From Streptomyces sp. NBC_00582 (GTDB lineage: Bacteria; Actinomycetota; Actinomycetes; Streptomycetales; Streptomycetaceae), in contig NZ_CP107772.1 of NCBI RefSeq assembly GCF_036345155.1, forward strand, positions 5,580,001 through 5,644,000: a stretch of DNA of 64,000 nucleotides, given 5' to 3'. Position numbers and translations under genes: made by a program. Positions within the stretch are counted from its first letter, which is position 1, and every line of letters starts with the position of its first letter. The notes under the pieces were generated by a model. The model was not told the DNA's origin. It did no database searches and worked only from the letters and a program-made list of their open reading frames with translations. This document shows positions 27,801-35,431 of the stretch, one piece after another.

Positions 27801-29276
27801 TTACGCCTGGCCGTAGAGGCTTGTCAGGTCGACGAGTCGAATGCTCGGTGAGGTCTCAGTAGCGGCGTGTGCCTTGTCATGGAAGCCTGCTCCGCTGAAG
27901 CACAGCAAGCGAGTGCGCGTGGTGTCGTAGCGGCCGGCCTGGGCGATGAGCTCGCGGATGTGCTTGAGGCGTTCGATGTGGGCGACGCCCATGGTGTTGT
28001 TCCACTTGGCTTCGCCGATGGCCAGCAGCGGGGGCTTGGCGTGTCCGTCAGCGATGCCCACAACGGCCACGTCGACCTCGTGGCCGGTGCGGGCTTTGGG
28101 GTCGTGGACCACTCCATGGCCGACGCGGGCGGGCAGGCCACCGAGTACATCGGCGTCGGCATGATGCAGGGCCCAGTCGCGGCAGACCTGCTCGAAATGG
28201 GGACCCATGACGTTGCTGACGAAACGGCGACGGCTGGCCTGCCAGACCCGGGCAGCGCTGCCGGGGCGCTCCAGCTGGTCCCATACCGGGCGCATGATGG
28301 CGTGGTAGAAGCCGATCAGTGGTTCGGCGATGCGGTAGGTGGGGCGGTTGTCGCGGAAGGCGTCGGCGTCCCGGTACAGCAGACCGGCGTCCTCGAGGAC
28401 GTTGATGGGGTGTGCGATGTCGGTGGCCTTGCGCTCCAGATACCCGGCCATGCCTCCACGCGTGGCGTTGCCGTCGGCCACGGCCGCCAGAACGGACAGG
28501 TACAGGGCGGTGTCACGCAGGTCTGGTTCCTCGGCCAGCAGGTACCGAGCCTCGCGAAAGAGGGGCGTCTCGGGATTGAGGACCGTACGTACGACCCAAT
28601 CGTCGAAGTCCTCCAGCCCGGCTGGACTGTCACCTCGGGCGAACTCACGCCGATAGGCGGGAGTACCGCCGACGATCGAGTTGACCTGCAGTGCAAGACG
28701 GGGATCCGTGATGTTCCAGAACTCGGCGGCGAGACGGTGGTCGAGGGGGCGTACGACGAGTTCGAGTCCCGCCCGGCCGCGCAGAGGAGCGTTGCCTGAC
28801 AGCAGCCGGCCCATGAAGGACAAGGCCGACCCGCACAGCAGCAACCGGGTCCGGGAGCCGGTGCGCTGGTCACGCAGAGGACGCAGGGCCTCCTGGATGA
28901 TCGAGGGGAGCTCCGGGTTGGCCTTGGCGAGGTACGGAAACTCGTCGATCACAACGGGGACGGGGCGCTCGGAGCCGAGGGCGAGCAGAGCGTCGACGGC
29001 CTCCGACCAGTTGGCGAAGTGGTACGGGCTGGCGGGGCGGACGTGAGCGGTCAGCGCGGAGCTGATCCGGCGGAGCGACTCGGCGTCGGCTGCTTCGGTC
29101 GCGCCGAAATAGAACCCACCGGCGGCACGGCAGACGGCGTCCAACAAGAATGTCTTGCCCTGGCGGCGACGTCCGGAGACCACCCCGAGGGTCGCGCCTG
29201 GCTGCGGATCGGTGATGAACCGGCTCAGCGCTGACCACTCGTAGTCCCGGTCGAACATCTCGGCAGGCTTGTCCAT
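27801..29276 (-). CDS. AAA ATPase with DUF234/PD-(D/E)XK C-terminal domain
   Basis: 491 residues. Walker A is GRRRQGKT (about 35-42), Walker B-like VPVVIDEFPYLAKANPELPSIIQEAL (about 105-130), and sensor LLLCGSALSFMGRLLSGNAPLRGRAGLELVVRPL. A winged-helix section (GMAGYLERKATDIAHPINVLEDAGLLYRDADAF) is followed by the DUF234 region, where GHEVDVAVVGI and LLAIGEAKW place an E-V-D...E-x-K nuclease-like motif (about 399-425). This is the archaeal-type ATPase family, widespread on mobile DNA and proposed to act in defence or DNA processing. The promoter region (29280-29330) is AT-rich compared with the surroundings, a sign of transfer. It lies between a broken hydrolase gene and a tRNA-Ser scar. Confidence 0.82.
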   Translation of the reverse strand: MDKPAEMFDRDYEWSALSRFITDPQPGATLGVVSGRRRQGKTFLLDAVCRAAGGFYFGATEAADAESLRRISSALTAHVRPASPYHFANWSEAVDALLALGSERPVPVVIDEFPYLAKANPELPSIIQEALRPLRDQRTGSRTRLLLCGSALSFMGRLLSGNAPLRGRAGLELVVRPLDHRLAAEFWNITDPRLALQVNSIVGGTPAYRREFARGDSPAGLEDFDDWVVRTVLNPETPLFREARYLLAEEPDLRDTALYLSVLAAVADGNATRGGMAGYLERKATDIAHPINVLEDAGLLYRDADAFRDNRPTYRIAEPLIGFYHAIMRPVWDQLERPGSAARVWQASRRRFVSNVMGPHFEQVCRDWALHHADADVLGGLPARVGHGVVHDPKARTGHEVDVAVVGIADGHAKPPLLAIGEAKWNNTMGVAHIERLKHIRELIAQAGRYDTTRTRLLCFSGAGFHDKAHAATETSPSIRLVDLTSLYGQA

Positions 29277-29465
29277 GCCTCGTCCTTAGACATAGAAGTA
29301 CAGCTACATAAAACATACTCCTATATCTGTCGCATGCTGGACTGTGCAGACGTAAGCAGGAGGCAGGCCGATGGACGCCGCCCGCGGGCGCACCCCTTGA
29401 GTCCGAGCCGTATCCCGAGGGTTCGCCGGAAATAAGTGAGATCGAAACTGAGACCAGGGCACGCC

Positions 29466-29499
29466 GAAGACCCCGGCCGCTGAGCGGTCCGGGGTCTTC
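29466..29499. terminator. hairpin next to the tRNA-Ser 3' scar
   Basis: GAAGACCCCGG (29466-29476) pairs with CCGGGGTCTTC (29489-29499), with an inner CCGC-TGA-GCGG stem. It corresponds in position to the terminator after the intact tRNA-Ser(GGA) gene but has diverged from it in sequence. Confidence 0.75.
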
Positions 29500-29574
29500 G
29501 TTTCGCCTGTTCAGGCGGCTGCGGAGGATACGAGATTCGAACTCGTGAGGGGTTGCCCCCAACACGCTTTCCAA
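29495..29574 (-). repeat. tRNA-Ser(GGA) 3' fragment, probable att site (distal end of the islet)
   Basis: 80 bp identical to 35320-35399. It contains the tRNA 3' half from the anticodon loop to the discriminator plus about 25 bp of downstream sequence. The match stops inside the anticodon loop (after CCAA on the plus strand), where tRNA-targeting tyrosine integrases commonly cross over. The 5' half of a tRNA is absent, so this is not a gene. Confidence 0.85.
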
Positions 29575-29671
29575 ATGTTCGTCCGGGGGTTCTGGGGCGT
29601 ACGGGAACGTCCTGACCTGCGGTGCAGCGGGTACGGGCGGAGCTTCTGAACGGTGCTGTACGCCGGTGAAT

Positions 29672-29690
29672 GCAACCAGAACTGCAACCA
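29672..29690. repeat. arm-like repeat near the left islet end
   Basis: GCAACCAGAACTGCAACCA, 17 of 19 bases identical to 35262-35280 and in the same orientation. Each copy has GCAACC twice. Their places, about 100 bp inside the left repeat and 40 bp inside the right repeat, are those expected for integrase arm-type sites. Confidence 0.45.
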
Positions 29691-29758
29691 CGGAAGCGGG
29701 GCGGCGTGAGTGTGTCCAGCTTCTGCTCGTGGTTCCTGGTCGGCGGGGAATCGCCTCC

Positions 29759-30994
29759 TTACTCCCCCTTCTGCGACCAGGCTGAGGTGAGCGCGGTGAC
29801 CGGGTCGCTGTCGGCTGGTGCCGCGGGCCACCATTCGCCGTCGTCGTCCTGGAGGTAGGGGTGCCAGCGGGCGTCGGGGCCCAGACGCAGCTGGATGCCG
29901 TGGTGGGTGAGGGTGAGGCGGTTGCGCCAGGTTCTGAGGTGTGTGGGGGAGTCGGTCATGTCGGCGAGGGCCGCATCCAGGGCGGTTCGGGTGGCCTTCA
30001 TCACCGTTGGGTCGGGGGTGTACGGCTGTTCGGCGACGGTGATGCCCGTGGGGCCGCCGTGGCGCCAGGCGCGGGTGAGGCGTGCGAAGGCAGTGGGGTT
30101 GGTGCCAGTGTTCTGGATCAGGTGGTGGAACCACTCGGGTCCGGGGTTGCCTGCGGCGATGCGGACGGCGTCCTGGTGCTGGGTCATGTTCAGGTCGGTG
30201 GTGTCGCCCGCGAGGAGCCGGGCGGCGCGCGCGGTGGCGTCGGCCATGAGGCGTTCCAGGTCCGCGGCGGCCAGGCCGCTGCCGGGTGGCGGGGCGACGG
30301 GCAGTGCTGTGGTGTGGGCGGCGGGTTCCGGGAGTTCGGGCAGTTCGGGGGGCTCTTCGGCCCAGTGGGCGTACGCGGCGGCGGCCGGGATGCCGGCCGG
30401 TGCCGGCGGGGCGGCAGTCTCCTGTGCTGCCGTACGGAGTGCGCGCAGCTGGGCGAAGACCTCCTCGCGACCGCGGCCGCGCAGTGCGAAGAGCACGAAC
30501 GGGTCGGTGTCGATGGTGGCGGCGATGGCGTAGCAGAGCGCGGCGGCGTGCTTGCAGGGGTATCCCCAGTCGGGACAGGAGCACTCCGGATCAAGCTCGG
30601 TGGGCAGTGGGAGCAGTGGGACGCCTGCGTGCCGGGCGTCGTCCACGAGTTCGGCGGGCATCTCGTCGTCGAGAAGTGCCGCGAGATGCCCGGCGCGGGC
30701 CGCGATCGTGTCGAGCAGGGTGTCCCACTGAGGGTCGGTGAGGACGGGCAGGTGGACCGAGGAGCGGTACGGGCGCGGGCGGCTGCCCTGGACAGCGGCG
30801 TTGACCTGGCCCGGAGCGACGGTGACTGGGCCGACCATGCCTGTGCGGGCATAGGTGCGTCCGCGCGAGAGCCTTCCGGCGTCCAGGGTGGAGTCCTCCA
30901 GGGCGGCCACCCATGCCTGGCCCCACCAGGTCGTGGCGAAGGCTCGCTTGCCGCGGGCGGGCGCACGGCGCGGGCCGGGGACGGCGGGGCTCAT
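29759..30994 (-). CDS. SWIM zinc-finger protein coupled to the SNF2 helicase
   Basis: 411 residues. It starts at an ATG that overlaps the SNF2 stop (ATGA), so the two proteins are translated from one mRNA. N-terminus RGKRAFATTWWGQAWVAALEDSTLDAGRLSRGRTYARTGMVG is the typical opening of actinobacterial SWIM proteins. The zinc-binding motif C-x-C-x(n)-C-x-H is ECSCPDWGYPCKHAAALCYAIA (about 130-150). The rest is acidic and helical (PELPELPEPAAHT, then DLNMTQHQDAVRIAAGNPGPEWFHHLIQ). SWIM domains bind DNA or protein. The constant pairing with SNF2 helicases in Actinobacteria suggests one complex; its job is unknown, with repair or defence as candidates. Confidence 0.88.
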   Translation of the reverse strand: MSPAVPGPRRAPARGKRAFATTWWGQAWVAALEDSTLDAGRLSRGRTYARTGMVGPVTVAPGQVNAAVQGSRPRPYRSSVHLPVLTDPQWDTLLDTIAARAGHLAALLDDEMPAELVDDARHAGVPLLPLPTELDPECSCPDWGYPCKHAAALCYAIAATIDTDPFVLFALRGRGREEVFAQLRALRTAAQETAAPPAPAGIPAAAAYAHWAEEPPELPELPEPAAHTTALPVAPPPGSGLAAADLERLMADATARAARLLAGDTTDLNMTQHQDAVRIAAGNPGPEWFHHLIQNTGTNPTAFARLTRAWRHGGPTGITVAEQPYTPDPTVMKATRTALDAALADMTDSPTHLRTWRNRLTLTHHGIQLRLGPDARWHPYLQDDDGEWWPAAPADSDPVTALTSAWSQKGE

Positions 30995-33879
30995 GACTGC
31001 CTTCCCAGGGCGACGAGTTCGGCGAGTTCGGCGTCGGACAGTTCGGTGAGGGCTGCCTCGCCGGAGCCGACGACGGCGTCGGCGAGCGCGCGCTTGGCTT
31101 CGAGCAGCTTCGCCACCTTGTCCTCCACGGTTCCCTCCGCGAGGAGCTTGTGTACCTGGACGGGTCTGTCCTGGCCGATGCGGTAGGCACGGTCGGTGGC
31201 CTGGTCCTCGACGGCCGGGTTCCACCAGCGGTCGTAGTGCACGACGTGGCTGGCGCGGGTGAGGTTGAGTCCGGTGCCCGCCGCTTTCAACGACAGCAGG
31301 AACACCGGCACTTCACCACGCTGGAAGCGGTCCACCATCTCCTCGCGCCGCGCGACGGGGGTGCCGCCGTGCAGGAAGAGAGCGGGGACGCCGCGCTCGG
31401 CCAGATGCTTCTCCAGCAGAGCCGCCATCTGTTTGTACTGCGTGAAGACCAGCACGGATTCGCCTTCGGCGGTGATGGTGTCGAGAAGCTCGTCGAGCAG
31501 GTCGAGCTTGCCGGAGCGGCCCCGCAGGGGAGTGGACTGGCGCAGGCTGTGCTCTTTCAGATACTGGGCGGGGTGGTTGCAGATCTGCTTCAGCGCGGTG
31601 AGCAGCTTGAGCACCAGACCACGCCGGGCGATGCCCTCCGACTCCGCGATCTTCGCCATGGTCTCGCGGACCTGTGCCTCGTACAGGATGGTCTGCTCGG
31701 CCGTCAGCGGGACGACGCGGTCGGTCTCGGTCTTGGGCGGCAGTTCGGGCGCGATGCCGGGGTCGGACTTCTTGCGGCGCAACAGGAAGGGACGTACGAG
31801 ACGGGACAGGCGCTCGGCTGCCTCGGGATCCTCGCCCGCCTCGACGGCGCGGGCATGCCGGTCACGGAAGGCGGTGAGCGTGCCGAGGAGCCCGGGGGTG
31901 GTCCAGTCGAGCAGTGCCCACAGCTCCGAGAGGTTGTTCTCCACGGGGGTCCCGGTGAGAGCGACGCGGGCGCGGGCGGGCAGGGCGCGCAGTTCGCGGG
32001 CGGTGACGGCGTAGGGGTTCTTGACGTGCTGGGCCTCGTCGGCGGCCACCAGCGACCAGGCGGTCTCGGCGAGCACTTGGCGGTCACGGCGCAGCACCCC
32101 GTAGGTGACCAGGACGATCTCGTCGCCGGCCAGGTCCCCCAGGTGGCGGTCGCCGCCGTGATAGCGGCGTACGGGGGTGGACGGTGCGAATCTGGCGGCC
32201 TCGCGCTGCCAGTTGCCGAGCAGAGAGGCCGGGCAGACGACAAGGGTGGGGCCCGCGGTGGAGGGGTCGGTCTGGCGGTGCAGGTGCAGAGCGAGCAAGG
32301 TGATGGTCTTGCCCAGGCCCATGTCGTCGGCGAGACAGCCGCCGAGGCCGAGTGCGCACATCTCGGCCAGCCAGGCCAGACCTCGCTTCTGGTACTCGCG
32401 CAACGTGGCGTTGAGGGCGGCGGGCTGGGGCACGGGGGTGCGGGACTCGGGATCGCGGATACGAGCGACCAGGTCGCCGAGTGCACCGACCGCCGCACAG
32501 GGGACCCGGTCACCGTCTTGCTCGGTCTCGCCGGTCAGCGCGGCGCTCAACGCCTCCATGGGGGTGAGCGGTTCCATCCGGCGGCGCTTGGCGCGGGCCA
32601 CCAGCTTCGGGTCGGCGACCACCCACTGGTCGCGAAGCCGGACGAGGGGACGGCGGGACTCTGCGAGGGCATCCATCTCGGCTTCGGTGAGCGGCTCGCC
32701 GCCGAGGGAGACCTGCCAGCGGAAGTCGAGGAGGGCCTCGGTGTCCAGCAGGCCGCCCGCGGCGGAACCGGGGGCGGTGCGCTGCCCGATCTCCGCGGTC
32801 GCGGTGAGCGCCTTGACCAGTTCGCGCGGCCAGTGCACGTCGACACCGGCCGCGCGCAGCGCGTCCGTGGCGTCCCCGAGGAGCTCGAAGGCTTCGTCGT
32901 CGGTCAACCTGAGCTGATCGGGAGCGGCATCGTCGAGCATTCTCCGCAGCGGGGGCCAGGCACGGGCGCCGCGACGCAGGGCGAGCAGGGTCTCGGTCTC
33001 GGCGCGCGGGCCGAGCAGCCGCTCCACTTCGGTCGGCTCGCTCCACAGCCGCGCGGCCTCGATGACGAGCGCCGGGTCCGCCGCGGTGTGCAGTTGCAGG
33101 ACGGCCCGGAACTGCCGTCGGCGTCCTTCGGGTACGTCGACGCGCAGGGAGACACTGACCTCGGAGGTGAGCGCCGCCTGGGTTTCCTCGGCCCATTCAC
33201 GCAAGGCGGGCACGGCATGGGCCTCGCGCCAGGCGTACGGCAGCGCTCCCATGGCGAGCGGCGCGGCCGGCGTACGGACCAGATCATCGGCGACCGCGTC
33301 GCAGAACTGGCGTACCAGTGCGGCCGGTTCGGTGATCCGTACCGGCGCAGGGCCTGGCTCGGGCAGGCAGTGGGCGTGTGGCGGGAAGGCGGCGGCCAGG
33401 GCGTCCAGCGTCTGGCGCTGGGCGGCGGTAAAAGGACCCACCTGCCAGGTGTCGTAACCGGCGGGAGTGAGGGCCGGGTGCAGACGGCCGTCAGCGAGCA
33501 GCCGCAGCGCGAACCAGGCGGCGGCCTGCCAGGCGGCGCTGGAAGGATGCGTCGGCTCCGCATCGGCCAGGGCGGAGACGGCGACGGCGACAGGCAGCGC
33601 GTAACCCTCGACCTTGCGCCGCCTGACCGAGCGGCCGTGCGGCAGGACCAGCTCCACCGCCTCGGTCTCAAGGCCGGTGGGTTCCATGCTGTCTTCGGCT
33701 GCTGCCCCGGTCGGCTTCCACAGCAGTAGCCGCCCGAGGCGGGCGGGCTCACCGGCCAGGAACACCGCCGCCCAGCCGGCGCCGAGCAGTTCCCTCACGA
33801 AGGCGGATGTTTCCCGCCGGGCCAGCGGCGGTGCGTTCCTCGCGCCCGTACTCGGCTCTCGTACGACGACTCGTGCCAC
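30991..33879 (-). CDS. SNF2-family DNA-dependent ATPase/helicase
   Basis: About 962 residues. The N-terminal half (1-480) is the bacterial SNF2-associated region (DUF3670-like). The motor follows: LREYQKRGLAWLAEMCALGLGGCLADDMGLGKT (Walker A about residue 520), a DEAQ box (AADEAQHVKN, about 613), ALTGTPVENNLSELWALLDWTTPGLLG, SVLVFTQYKQMAALLEKHL and motif VI QATDRAYRIGQDRPVQVHKL (about 896). Starts with GTG; I prefer 33879 (RVVVREPS), preceded by GGCGGAAGAGA. An in-frame GTG at 33939 would add 20 basic residues. DEAQ instead of DEAH is seen in other SNF2 members. It is the first gene of the pair with the SWIM protein. Confidence 0.92.
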   Translation of the reverse strand: MARVVVREPSTGARNAPPLARRETSAFVRELLGAGWAAVFLAGEPARLGRLLLWKPTGAAAEDSMEPTGLETEAVELVLPHGRSVRRRKVEGYALPVAVAVSALADAEPTHPSSAAWQAAAWFALRLLADGRLHPALTPAGYDTWQVGPFTAAQRQTLDALAAAFPPHAHCLPEPGPAPVRITEPAALVRQFCDAVADDLVRTPAAPLAMGALPYAWREAHAVPALREWAEETQAALTSEVSVSLRVDVPEGRRRQFRAVLQLHTAADPALVIEAARLWSEPTEVERLLGPRAETETLLALRRGARAWPPLRRMLDDAAPDQLRLTDDEAFELLGDATDALRAAGVDVHWPRELVKALTATAEIGQRTAPGSAAGGLLDTEALLDFRWQVSLGGEPLTEAEMDALAESRRPLVRLRDQWVVADPKLVARAKRRRMEPLTPMEALSAALTGETEQDGDRVPCAAVGALGDLVARIRDPESRTPVPQPAALNATLREYQKRGLAWLAEMCALGLGGCLADDMGLGKTITLLALHLHRQTDPSTAGPTLVVCPASLLGNWQREAARFAPSTPVRRYHGGDRHLGDLAGDEIVLVTYGVLRRDRQVLAETAWSLVAADEAQHVKNPYAVTARELRALPARARVALTGTPVENNLSELWALLDWTTPGLLGTLTAFRDRHARAVEAGEDPEAAERLSRLVRPFLLRRKKSDPGIAPELPPKTETDRVVPLTAEQTILYEAQVRETMAKIAESEGIARRGLVLKLLTALKQICNHPAQYLKEHSLRQSTPLRGRSGKLDLLDELLDTITAEGESVLVFTQYKQMAALLEKHLAERGVPALFLHGGTPVARREEMVDRFQRGEVPVFLLSLKAAGTGLNLTRASHVVHYDRWWNPAVEDQATDRAYRIGQDRPVQVHKLLAEGTVEDKVAKLLEAKRALADAVVGSGEAALTELSDAELAELVALGRQS

Positions 33880-34062
33880 TCTCTTCCGCCCTGTTCGCTT
33901 GCCGGACGCTCCCCTGGCCTGCTCACCACCGAACCCCACCAGGCAACCTCACACGCTGGCAACCGCAGGCCCTGGCTTGACTGCTGGCGACGGCGCGCGG
34001 CGGATATGCCGCTGCTGAACACACCGGTCCTCAACCGTACGGTGCGGCGCTACGGTGAGGCC

Positions 34063-34374
34063 ATGAGCACCTGGGACCCAGCCGTGCTGGAGGCGTTGAT
34101 CGAAGAGGTCACCGTCGACGCCTACGGCGAGGATGAGCAGCTCACCGCCTTCTTCACGATGATCGAGGAGAGCCTTGCCGTACCGTTCGCCACGACTGTT
34201 CTCGGCGTCGAGGTGAACGTGGTCGGTGTCGATCTGGCCGAGGACGGGCGCGTGGTCGCACGCTGCGTCCGGGGGCCGGTCCGACAGGACATCGGAATTC
34301 TGGACCTGCCGCTGCCCGAGCCCGCCCCGGAGGGCTCGCAATGGATCGAGGCACACCGCTACTGGGCCCGCTGA
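34063..34374 (+). CDS. CcbP-like small acidic (calcium-binding type) protein
   Basis: 103 residues: STWDPAVLEALIEEVTVDAYGEDEQLTAFFTMIEESLAVPFATTVLGVEVNVVGVDLAEDGRVVARCVRGPVRQDIGILDLPLPEP, then EAHRYWAR. The all-acidic helix followed by a small barrel matches the Anabaena CcbP-like calcium-binding family as I remember it (E-A-Y-x-E-x-E-Q-x-x-A-F, P-F-x-x-x-V-x-G). The acidic clusters EEVTVDAYGEDEQ could bind Ca2+. Start at the ATG at 34063; an upstream ATG would add 19 unrelated residues. Divergent from the SNF2 gene. Inside the islet; no partner is evident. Confidence 0.65.
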   Translation: MSTWDPAVLEALIEEVTVDAYGEDEQLTAFFTMIEESLAVPFATTVLGVEVNVVGVDLAEDGRVVARCVRGPVRQDIGILDLPLPEPAPEGSQWIEAHRYWAR

Positions 34375-34500
34375 ACTGACGCGCCGCACAACTGCACAGC
34401 TGAGCCCGTGCTCGAACCGACCTGAGCCCGTGCTCGAACGGGCGGCCGCCCCGATTGCAGCTGACCGGACCGACCGCGGTAAACAGAGAGCACATAGCAC

Positions 34501-34516
34501 GCATACCGCAGTATGC
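34501..34516. promoter_or_regulatory. toxin-antitoxin operator palindrome
   Basis: GCATAC-CGCA-GTATGC is a perfect 6-bp inverted repeat, ending nine bases before the antitoxin ATG at 34525. It is unusually AT-rich for the region. Ribbon-helix-helix antitoxins bind such short palindromes to repress their own operon. Confidence 0.65.
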
Positions 34517-34524
34517 TTACCGCT

Positions 34525-34773
34525 ATGGCTGACACCACGCGCATCACGGTGACACTCCCCACCGAGCAGGTGGCGGAGCTGAAGAAGATCACGGACAACA
34601 TCTCCGGCTACGTGGCCGAAGCGGTTGCCAGACAGATCCGGCACCAGCTTCTGGGGGCCGACCTGCGCAGCCACGCAGACGAGCACGGGGCCTTCAGTGA
34701 GGAAGAGCTGGCCGAGGCGCGGGCGCGGATCTTCGGTACGACGCAGGCCGCCGGTGGCGCGAGCGCTGCGTGA
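34525..34773 (+). CDS. ribbon-helix-helix antitoxin
   Basis: 82 residues. The N-terminus ADTTRITVTLPTEQVAELKKITDNISGYVAEAVARQIRHQLL is a ribbon-helix-helix (beta strand RITVTLP, then two helices with the G-Y-V-A-E-A-V pattern of CopG/ParD/VapB types). The acidic C-terminal part (ADEHGAFSEEELAEARARIFG) would wrap around the toxin. The ATG at 34525 is preferred; an ATG at 34513 lies inside the operator palindrome. The stop overlaps the start of the PIN gene as GTGA, the usual antitoxin-toxin coupling. Confidence 0.85.
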   Translation: MADTTRITVTLPTEQVAELKKITDNISGYVAEAVARQIRHQLLGADLRSHADEHGAFSEEELAEARARIFGTTQAAGGASAA

Positions 34774-35171
34774 GCGGGCACATCGAGACTGTCGTCCTGG
34801 ACAGCGAGGGGTTGTCGGCCTGGGTGGCGCAGGATCGGAAGGTTCTGGCGATGTTCCAGGTGTTCCACGACATGGGAGCGGACCTTGTCGTCAGCGCCAA
34901 CACCATCGTGGAGGTGAGCCACACCAGGGTGAACCTGCCCCGACTGCAATGGGCGCTCTCCCGGGTCAAGGTGGAGCCGGTCACCGAGGCGACGGCCAAG
35001 GCGGCGGCACAACTGCTCAAGAGCGTCGGCCTGCACGGACACAAGTACGCGATCGACGCCACCGTCGCCGAAGCGGCCTTGCGTCAGCCTGGCCCGGTCG
35101 CCATTCTCACGTCGGATATCGATGACATGACCCGGCTGTGCGGCGGCAAGGTCCGGATGATCGGGCTATGA
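34770..35171 (+). CDS. PIN-domain ribonuclease toxin (VapC-like)
   Basis: 133 residues. PIN acidic residues are present in order: Asp in TVVLDSEGLSAW (about 11), Glu in NTIVEVSHTR (about 48), Asp in YAIDATVAEAAL (about 98) and Asp in ILTSDIDDMTRL (about 116). The fold and length fit VapC-type Mg2+-dependent RNases, which cleave tRNA or rRNA. The second-strand and C-terminal SDIDDM pattern is the actinobacterial variant that keeps the active site. Translated from a GTG overlapping the antitoxin stop. The TA pair sits next to the right att repeat, a frequent position for stabilising genes on integrated elements. Confidence 0.85.
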   Translation: MSGHIETVVLDSEGLSAWVAQDRKVLAMFQVFHDMGADLVVSANTIVEVSHTRVNLPRLQWALSRVKVEPVTEATAKAAAQLLKSVGLHGHKYAIDATVAEAALRQPGPVAILTSDIDDMTRLCGGKVRMIGL

Positions 35172-35261
35172 CGGCTGCCGTGACTCCGTCGTCAGTCGCC
35201 CCACGGATGCGAGCGTGCGTCTTTCTGCCTGGCAGGTATGTCCCGAATGTTGCCTATAAAC

Positions 35262-35280
35262 GCAACCGAAACTGCAACCA
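35262..35280. repeat. arm-like repeat near the right islet end
   Basis: GCAACCGAAACTGCAACCA, 17 of 19 bases identical to 29672-29690. It lies just inside the terminator of tRNA-Ser(GGA). A further diverged relative (CGAAACTGAGACCAGGGCA) lies left of the left att repeat. Confidence 0.45.
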
Positions 35281-35289
35281 GGGCATGCC

Positions 35290-35324
35290 GAAGAGCCGGA
35301 CCGCACTAAGCGGTCCGGCTCTTC
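35290..35324. terminator. terminator of tRNA-Ser(GGA)
   Basis: A perfect 15-bp stem GAAGAGCCGGACCGC (35290-35304) with its complement at 35310-35324 around ACTAA. It lies 23 bp past the 3' end of the minus-strand tRNA. The outer base pairs overlap the start of the 80-bp att repeat. Confidence 0.8.
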
Positions 35325-35399
35325 GTTTCGCCTGTTCAGGCGGCTGCGGAGGATACGAGATTCGAACTCGTGAGGGGTTGCCCCCAACACGCTTTCCAA
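35320..35399 (-). repeat. att repeat within the intact tRNA-Ser(GGA)
   Basis: Identical over 80 bp to 29495-29574. It covers the tRNA from the anticodon loop to the 3' end plus about 25 bp of flank. The base after the match differs (G here, A in the left copy), which marks the crossover limit. Confidence 0.85.
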
Positions 35400-35431
35400 G
35401 CGTGCGCCCTAGGCCTCTAGGCGAATCCTCC
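35347..35431 (-). tRNA. tRNA-Ser(GGA)
   Basis: Minus-strand sequence begins GGAGGATTCGCCTAGAGG and ends with ATCCTCC plus a G discriminator. The anticodon stem-loop CACGCTTGGAAAGCGTG carries GGA, reading UCC and UCU. A long variable arm (TGTTGGGGGCAACCCC) and TTCGAAT confirm serine. 85 bases, CCA not encoded. Its 3' part is the integration target of the islet to the left and is regenerated by it. Confidence 0.95.

Follow-up and report, generated by a model that had tools for sequence, protein, structure and literature searches.

The 64,000-nucleotide stretch of Streptomyces sp. NBC_00582 analysed here (contig NZ_CP107772.1; hereafter the window, to whose coordinates all positions refer) carries at 29495-35399 a small islet of accessory genes lodged at a tRNA-Ser(GGA) gene. 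The islet is bounded by an exact 80-bp match (29495-29574 = 35320-35399) in which both copies stop abruptly. The distance from copy to copy is 5,825 bp, and only these two copies were found in the 11.1-Mb genome at an E value of 0.001 or better. The features of the islet and its target, including the candidate integrase-binding (arm) sites, are as follows.

29495-29574, minus strand: left copy of the 80-bp repeat, the displaced 3' half of the tRNA gene and distal attachment (att) core (exact match to the right copy)
29575-29694, plus strand: conserved left end within the islet, the P' arm (aligned ends across islets)
29671-29690, plus strand: arm-site pair TGCAACCAGAACTGCAACCA, type IV, 12-bp spacing (motif scan of the window)
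29759-30994, minus strand: SWIM zinc-finger protein gene, cargo (PF04434, 28.7 bits, cut-off 19.6)
30991-33939, minus strand: SNF2 helicase gene of the SCO1167/SCO6262 family, cargo (NCBIfam NF058637, 1476 bits, cut-off 1200)
34063-34374, plus strand: CcbP-like small protein gene, cargo (PF11535, 21.4 bits, just below the cut-off of 21.5)
34525-34773, plus strand: CcdA-like antitoxin gene, cargo (PF07362, 21.6 bits, just below the cut-off of 22.4)
34770-35171, plus strand: PIN-domain toxin gene, cargo (PF01850, 23.4 bits, just below the cut-off of 23.6)
35238-35260, plus strand: right-end signature of the integrase-less family, repeated ATGTC-like words and then A-rich sequence
35261-35280, plus strand: arm-site pair CGCAACCGAAACTGCAACCA, right end, type IV (motif scan of the window)
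35289-35325, no strand assigned: terminator-like hairpin after the tRNA, borne by the islet (read from the sequence)
35320-35399, minus strand: right copy of the 80-bp repeat, the proximal att core together with 26 bp past the 3' end of the tRNA gene (exact match to the left copy)
35346-35431, minus strand: intact tRNA-Ser(GGA), the integration target (ARAGORN; anticodon at tRNA position 35)

The 80-bp repeat consists of tRNA positions 33 to 86 (54 bp) followed by 26 bp past the 3' end, so that the anticodon loop is broken after position 32, and the 54 bp at 35346-35399, the 3' half of the present tRNA gene, are supplied by the islet. Direct repeats made of the 3' part of a tRNA gene with the intact tRNA at one end are the hallmarks of a tRNA-integrated genomic island. 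A first-pass annotation made from the DNA letters had already described the identical 80-bp ends, the end of the match inside the anticodon loop, the intact tRNA at one end and the geometry of a tyrosine-integrase insertion, all of which our analysis bears out. To the right of the tRNA lie the SRP RNA gene and dnaX, whose start is ~0.3 kb from the islet boundary. Arm-site pairs are matched three times in the window against 0.01 expected by chance.

No integrase was found inside the islet by a Pfam scan of its five genes or by two integrase hidden Markov models (HMMs) run between the cores, and the Pfam scan detected no relaxase or other conjugation domain in these genes. The earlier description of an integrase-free islet carrying SNF2-SWIM genes and a toxin-antitoxin pair thus holds, the CcdA-like and PIN genes being adjacent and overlapping, both slightly under their Pfam cut-offs, with no NCBIfam match for the pair. 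In terms of established classes, the islet lacks the integrase of its own that defines integrative and mobilizable elements (IMEs), integrative and conjugative elements (ICEs) and genomic islands, and has the make-up of a cis-mobilizable element (CIME), with attL and attR kept and the integration and transfer genes absent.

We consider 29495-35399 to be a non-autonomous integrative islet that was most likely moved by the integrase, IntIII, of another element, and assign this reading a probability of roughly 0.75. The islet carries its own attachment site, composed of the tRNA-Ser(GGA) 3' half, a terminator and a 12-bp-spaced arm-site pair at each end, and would insert at the anticodon loop, where its copy of the 3' half would restore the tRNA. 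Because insertion restores the tRNA, later islets would be expected to stack between an earlier islet and the tRNA. The integrase would be supplied by elements of 4-48 kb residing at the same tRNA, whose IntIII tyrosine integrases have an N-terminal domain of two forms, Tyr19/Arg29 occurring with TGAGACC arms and Phe19/Tyr29 with TGCAACC arms. Since the islet has TGCAACC-type sites at both ends, a Tyr29 integrase is the predicted mover, and mobilisation could take place in trans, or in cis as part of a tandem composite. Sequence comparison shows the geometry of the islet, its empty site, its horizontal spread, the matching of its ends and the covariation of integrase and arm; that IntIII recombines the islet ends, and that the islet is excised and has a route between cells, are steps that we infer.

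The empty site is represented by a relative (G006) in which an ATPase gene, a hairpin and the tRNA are contiguous, with the same left neighbour as in the window. This contiguity indicates that G006 retains the state before insertion of the SNF2 islet, and when the flanks of the window were joined computationally and compared with the G006 junction, 382 bp aligned at 88.5% identity. The first-pass annotation had anticipated that strains lacking the islet would carry the tRNA directly followed by this hairpin, and G006 does so with nearly the same hairpin. The ATPase unit of G006 is itself a 2-kb core-bounded islet without an integrase, and its counterpart in the window is an older islet to the left of the SNF2 islet.

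27801-29276, minus strand: ATPase_2-like gene, cargo of the older islet (25.1 bits, below the cut-off of 33.2)
29437-29456, plus strand: arm-site pair TGAGATCGAAACTGAGACCA, type III, right end of the older outer islet (a similar end lies beside the tRNA in G006)
29465-29500, no strand assigned: terminator-like hairpin of the older islet, which adjoined the tRNA before the SNF2 islet was inserted (a near-identical hairpin directly follows the tRNA in G006)

Only the right end of the older islet (29432-29494) is recognisable in the window; its left end was not found, there being no further arm pair or core to its left within the window. The sequence at 29432-29480, outside the left repeat, resembles the right end of the SNF2 islet itself (78% over 49 bp), and the ATPase_2-like gene gives weak PADLOC matches to PDC-S27. 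The suggestion that the site had been used repeatedly is well founded. The weak similarity reported earlier outside both repeats is upheld on the left, where it is the right end of the older islet, and dwindles on the right to a weak match of ~20 bp beyond the 80-bp repeat (the repeat family extends to 29596/35421).

We found the integrase-less SWIM-SNF2-toxin-antitoxin islet in 12 genomes including that of the window, nine of which have the tRNA in the stretch examined. It lies beside tRNA-Ser(GGA), or one islet off, in eight others (G120, G196, G336, G387, G397, S. typhae [L135], Streptomyces sp. MA5143a [L136] and S. tuirus [L137]), and beside matching cores in a further three whose tRNA falls outside the stretch examined (G377, Streptomyces sp. 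AC555_RSS877 [L133] and S. griseus NRRL WC-3645 [L134]). None of the 11 other genomes gave an HMM match to an integrase inside the islet. No CcbP-like gene was seen in the S. typhae copy, and the SNF2 gene of G387 is broken. At 4-fold degenerate sites, compared in the nine of the twelve genomes that have dnaX in the stretch examined, the SNF2 genes are 80-94% identical as against 52-72% for the 5' part of dnaX; SNF2 exceeds dnaX in 36/36 pairs, the SWIM (82-97%) and PIN (86-99%) genes agree, and SNF2 has accordingly spread horizontally. The DNA outside the left core also differs between copies, being a type III islet end in the window, a type IV islet end in G377 and the remains of a type I element in G196 and G336 (this outer-left neighbour was typed in these four genomes and is untyped in G120, G387, L135, L136 and L137). 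Horizontal spread and differing outer neighbours together imply that the copies were not all inherited from a single ancient insertion. In G397 and G377 additional core-bounded islets occupy the tRNA-facing side of the SNF2 islet. A type III islet follows it in L136, while the window has its type III ATPase islet on the far side. Lower-identity SNF2 relatives (L138-L146, 66-89%; G022 and G012, 87%) showed no core or tRNA-Ser in the stretch examined.

The SNF2 islet is one of many at this site. In a search of 60 relatives, extra copies of the 54-bp core were found in at least 15 of 36 same-genus genomes, some on other contigs of draft assemblies, and core matches of at least 24 bp delimit 88 islets in 85 regions, 56 without an integrase match (median 4.7 kb) and 32 with one (median 21.3 kb). 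These integrase-less counts derive from a second integrase model (12 seeds: 7 frame-confirmed loci and 5 public IntIII sequences), at least 4 of the 20 seeds of the first having been read from the wrong strand (L073, L087, L089, L090). The two models gave the same verdict for 87 of the 88 islets, the differing one being G233, where the second model finds an integrase fragment; the aligned ends, the survey of arm pairs, the counts of neighbours and the right-end motif rest on the first model. The integrase-less cargo falls into about 29 groups at a loose similarity threshold. It ranges from a lone toxin-antitoxin-like pair in ~1.1-kb islets between two cores (G309, L102:6328-7438; G029, L052:4657-5746) to helicase-WYL proteins, DNA methylase, HNH and Mrr nucleases, two-component regulators and LytR-type proteins (30 proteins scanned of 478 called). 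The first-pass annotation had proposed a search for islets that share the ends of the SNF2 islet but carry different cargo, and such islets do exist.

Across islets with unrelated cargo the left end is kept for ~120 bp beyond the core and closes with two 6-mers 12 bp apart, either GCAACC (type IV, TGCAACC) or GAGACC (type III, TGAGACC), and a similar arm pair lies ~84 bp from the core at the right end. In a search of 392 genus genomes that scored two candidates in each, at least 95 have the core plus left arm, with a match reaching query position 100 or further. Among the integrase-less islets typed III/IV at both ends, 31/34 are matched (15 III-III, 16 IV-IV; Fisher p=2e-6); the first model had given 32/35, before the G233 fragment came to light. 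A strict right-end motif (ATGTC-like words, then A-rich sequence) occurs in 13/43 integrase-less and 0/29 integrase-bearing ends, and a looser A-rich test gives 33/43 versus 0/29, with 16/88 islets dropped for a right arm score <10; G233, among the 43, has neither form. The trinucleotide ACT directly precedes the arm pair in 17/17 IntIII right ends and in a few large integrase-less ones (G104, G118).

The integrases at tRNA-Ser(GGA) group by arm type. In elements of type I (GAGACGG), Ib or II the integrase gene mostly adjoins the right end. IntIII, a label of this study, is the group whose genes lie within elements that are 4-48 kb in size and bear type III or IV arms. The 11 IntIII elements of one set are all located at tRNA-Ser(GGA) and have type III/IV arms, the two ends agreeing in type in 10/11. 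The IntIII element of G025 has genes for a relaxase and for type I restriction-like proteins as well. IntIII was detected in 29 of 382 genus genomes (at least 68% identity, fragments included), and the conserved left end accompanies it in 27/29 of these compared with 68/353 others (Fisher p=5.5e-16, an approximate value from hand-compiled lists: 392 genomes were searched for the left end and 382 for IntIII, and the former count is a lower bound). A phage or plasmid vehicle is not supported, as neither collection contains an IntIII match of ≥50% identity (limit E 1e-40) and the left end of the islet has no match in phages. IntIII also has a C-terminal extension of ~175 residues (about 411-586, e.g. 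L044:6503-8260) without a Pfam match, predicted mostly at high confidence from ~residue 430; in more distant integrases of the same and other sites, the match to IntIII stops near residue 413.

Which arm an IntIII element carries covaries with two residues near the N-terminus of its integrase, where the segment reads ...IY.GKDGRWHGRV... if the arms are GAGACC and ...IF.GKDGRWHGYV... if they are GCAACC. Residue 29 is Arg in 8/8 type III elements (G010, G025, G035, G337, G227, G203, G299, G244) and Tyr in 11/11 type IV elements (G314, G333, G350, G134, G182, G190, G248, G340, G347, G028, G319). In this set the far end is on another contig for G035, G340 and G347 and one end is seen for G028 and G319; G275, G008, G377, G194, G109, G313, G218, G295 and G233 are left out for want of N-terminal sequence or a typed arm, and the mixed-arm element G081, which has Arg at residue 29, is counted apart from the 19. 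Residue 19 is His rather than Phe in G028. Among the best 120 of 4053 public homologues, residue 29 is Arg in 88 and Tyr in 32, and residues 19/29 pair as Tyr/Arg or Phe/Tyr in 103/104 that fit the pattern. On a tree of these 120 homologues built from everything except the N-terminal domain, the Arg/Tyr label changes 15 times, at least 10 of them forced by well-supported branches. The N-terminal 75 residues separate the arm types (81.3% identity within versus 74.8% between); the catalytic domain was tried as a correlate of arm type and failed (83.5% within versus 83.2% between). An AlphaFold model of IntIII is poor overall (mean predicted local distance difference test score, pLDDT, 57.6), and from its N-terminal part, the only one used (blocks 11-60 at 64-77), the domain would have three strands plus a helix, with residue 19 in the first strand and residue 29 in the second. 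That is the architecture described for arm-binding domains of the IntTn916 group (PMC8138268), and the N-terminal part of IntIII has no arm-domain match in Pfam. Where an integrase-less islet adjoins an IntIII element, the two have opposite arm types in G314, G333, G299 and G244 and the same type in G194; for neighbours overall the count is 8 opposite versus 4 same, which makes an opposite-type rule only a hint.

Several observations weigh against movement by IntIII. Neither an excised circle nor a transfer was observed. Resemblance to the left end of the islet helped to decide which regions entered the comparison, so the proportions given above are biased and do not represent population frequencies. 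Mixed III/IV ends occur in 3/34 integrase-less islets, and the remaining 22 of the 56 include three with a III/IV left and a type I/II right end besides one Ib-Ib islet, the rest having an end too weak to type. The strict diagnostic motif is present in only 13 of the 43 integrase-less right ends, and the element of G081 combines a type III left with a type IV right arm. Of the SNF2 islets, those of L133, L134 and G397 lack a detected left core, the left arm being present, that of L136 is missing its right-end core, and the right arms are type I-like or weak in G196 (L097) and G336 (L116). The latter look as though another element had inserted there and then left. Finally, no close IntIII was found in this genome, the best match being 43% identical and at another site; with no helper in sight, the copy described here may now be stranded.

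These points must be set against the alternatives. The classic origin of a CIME, in which one integrase-bearing element inserts, loses its integrase in place and is inherited vertically, would fit the way Streptomyces actinomycete integrative and conjugative elements (AICEs) decay (PMC9513070), and G104 and G118, large islets that resemble decayed masters by their right ends, as well as G233 with its integrase fragment, may be instances of it. For the SNF2 islet we regard such decay as improbable: it is at odds with the horizontal spread of an already integrase-less form and the differing outer neighbours, and also with a right-end motif unseen in 17 IntIII and 12 other integrase-bearing ends, although an ancestor with such an end may have been lost. 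As the main account it was rejected on the synonymous-site test. Of the two origins that the first-pass annotation had left side by side, decayed or trans-mobilised, mobilisation by the integrase of another element is thus favoured, and decay is disfavoured by the 12 genomes, the horizontal spread, the differing neighbours and the distinct right end. A more serious contender, if still an unlikely one, is that movement is always in cis, the islet and a neighbouring integrase element excising and transferring as one composite whose master is later lost. Tandem arrays of an islet and an IntIII element do exist (G314, G333, G299, G244, G194), and cis-mobilisation of tandem elements is documented in other systems (PMC5704250). 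Yet the neighbours have opposite arm types in four of the five arrays, all except G194, and 0/24 same-genus relatives with a tRNA-proximal integrase-less islet are among the 29 listed IntIII genomes, a list that omits some no-match genomes; neither point is decisive against movement in cis.

The integrase responsible might instead be a type I or type II enzyme of elements at the same tRNA, which use the same 54-bp core; the type I enzymes, with GAGACG arms, also have Arg29 in 4/4 inspected (G002 and G021 being identical to each other), and the right end of a few islets is of type I or II. Type I/II elements mostly carry other arms (GAGACGG, ACAACG) and left ends unlike those of the islets, however, and we give this possibility little credence. 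Streptomyces recombine readily, and homologous recombination of flanking chromosomal DNA could in principle have spread the islet with its att ends passive. This is the hardest of the alternatives to credit, given that dnaX, ~0.3 kb off the boundary, shows no raised similarity, that the outer-left neighbours differ and that the end types covary across unrelated cargo. Movement by IntIII therefore remains the reading that we prefer. Although speculative, and in our estimate a little short of an even bet, it is attractive to extend it to a cassette system at the Streptomyces tRNA-Ser(GGA), in which many integrase-less cargo units with shared ends would be moved in trans by IntIII, with two mutually exclusive arm codes set by residues 19/29 and switched at least 10 times, perhaps so that neighbours in an array do not excise each other.

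Integron gene cassettes, which form arrays of small integrase-less cargo units including toxin-antitoxin cassettes and depend on attC and IntI, offer one parallel. Here attC/IntI are replaced by a tRNA half and arm sites, with a candidate integrase that has an arm-binding-like N-terminal domain. The present islet fits the integron definition of attC plus IntI poorly, having a repeat core made of half a tRNA and no integrase between the repeats (no search aimed at attC was made). CIMEs and tandem accretion, as in ICESt1-related elements, resemble the islets in being att-flanked, devoid of integration and transfer genes and stacked at one target gene; CIMEs are nevertheless described as decay products of ICEs and IMEs, whereas the islets share a right end of their own and one of them spreads as a unit (PMC5704250). 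The Dehalococcoides ssrA islands likewise stand in tandem at one RNA gene, 15 of them without an integration module and suggested to be CIMEs, but belong to a serine recombinase system, and no matched-arm code is described in the passages of that source consulted (PMC3146451). AICE/DAICE accretion at a Streptomyces tRNA-Arg shares the genus, a tRNA target, tandem arrangement and some members without an integrase; unlike the islets, DAICEs keep traB, and the remnants are interpreted as decay (PMC9513070). Tycheposons are cargo units at a tRNA gene with involvement of a tyrosine recombinase, although those described contain the recombinase gene (PMC10872708), and the jumbo-phage tmRNA islands, which are small, lie at an RNA gene and have diverse cargo and no transfer genes, differ in that all three described encode their own tyrosine integrase (PMC12595487).

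Accretion, CIMEs and integrase-less ssrA islands are thus already known. New, as far as our literature search shows, are an integrase-less islet family with its own ends, the spread of one of its members and the integrase-arm code; that search, which left out most subscription papers and preprints, found no published description of this tRNA-Ser(GGA) system. Att-flanked islands without an integrase are usually taken as remnants, and here spread between species is seen in at least one member of the family. Now that there is a candidate helper, and two residues from which to predict the integrase that moves a given islet, the long-suspected supply of integrase by another element to islands at tRNA sites becomes directly testable. 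Searches that start from the integrase could miss mobile units of this kind, the abstract on Islander, for one, tying islands to tyrosine integrases. The link between residue 29 and the arm site may in addition help to explain how arm-site specificity evolves in tyrosine integrases.

With regard to the cargo, a defence role for SNF2 was considered and is unsupported: its PADLOC matches fall on the helicase region of DpdE/ZorD and others, and NCBIfam places it in the SCO1167/SCO6262 helicase family. The SWIM-SNF2 block also occurs at ~85% identity on the giant Streptomyces plasmids NZ_CP109481.1 and NZ_CP109439.1, and although these plasmids show no vehicle for the islet, they may be the source of its SWIM-SNF2 cargo.

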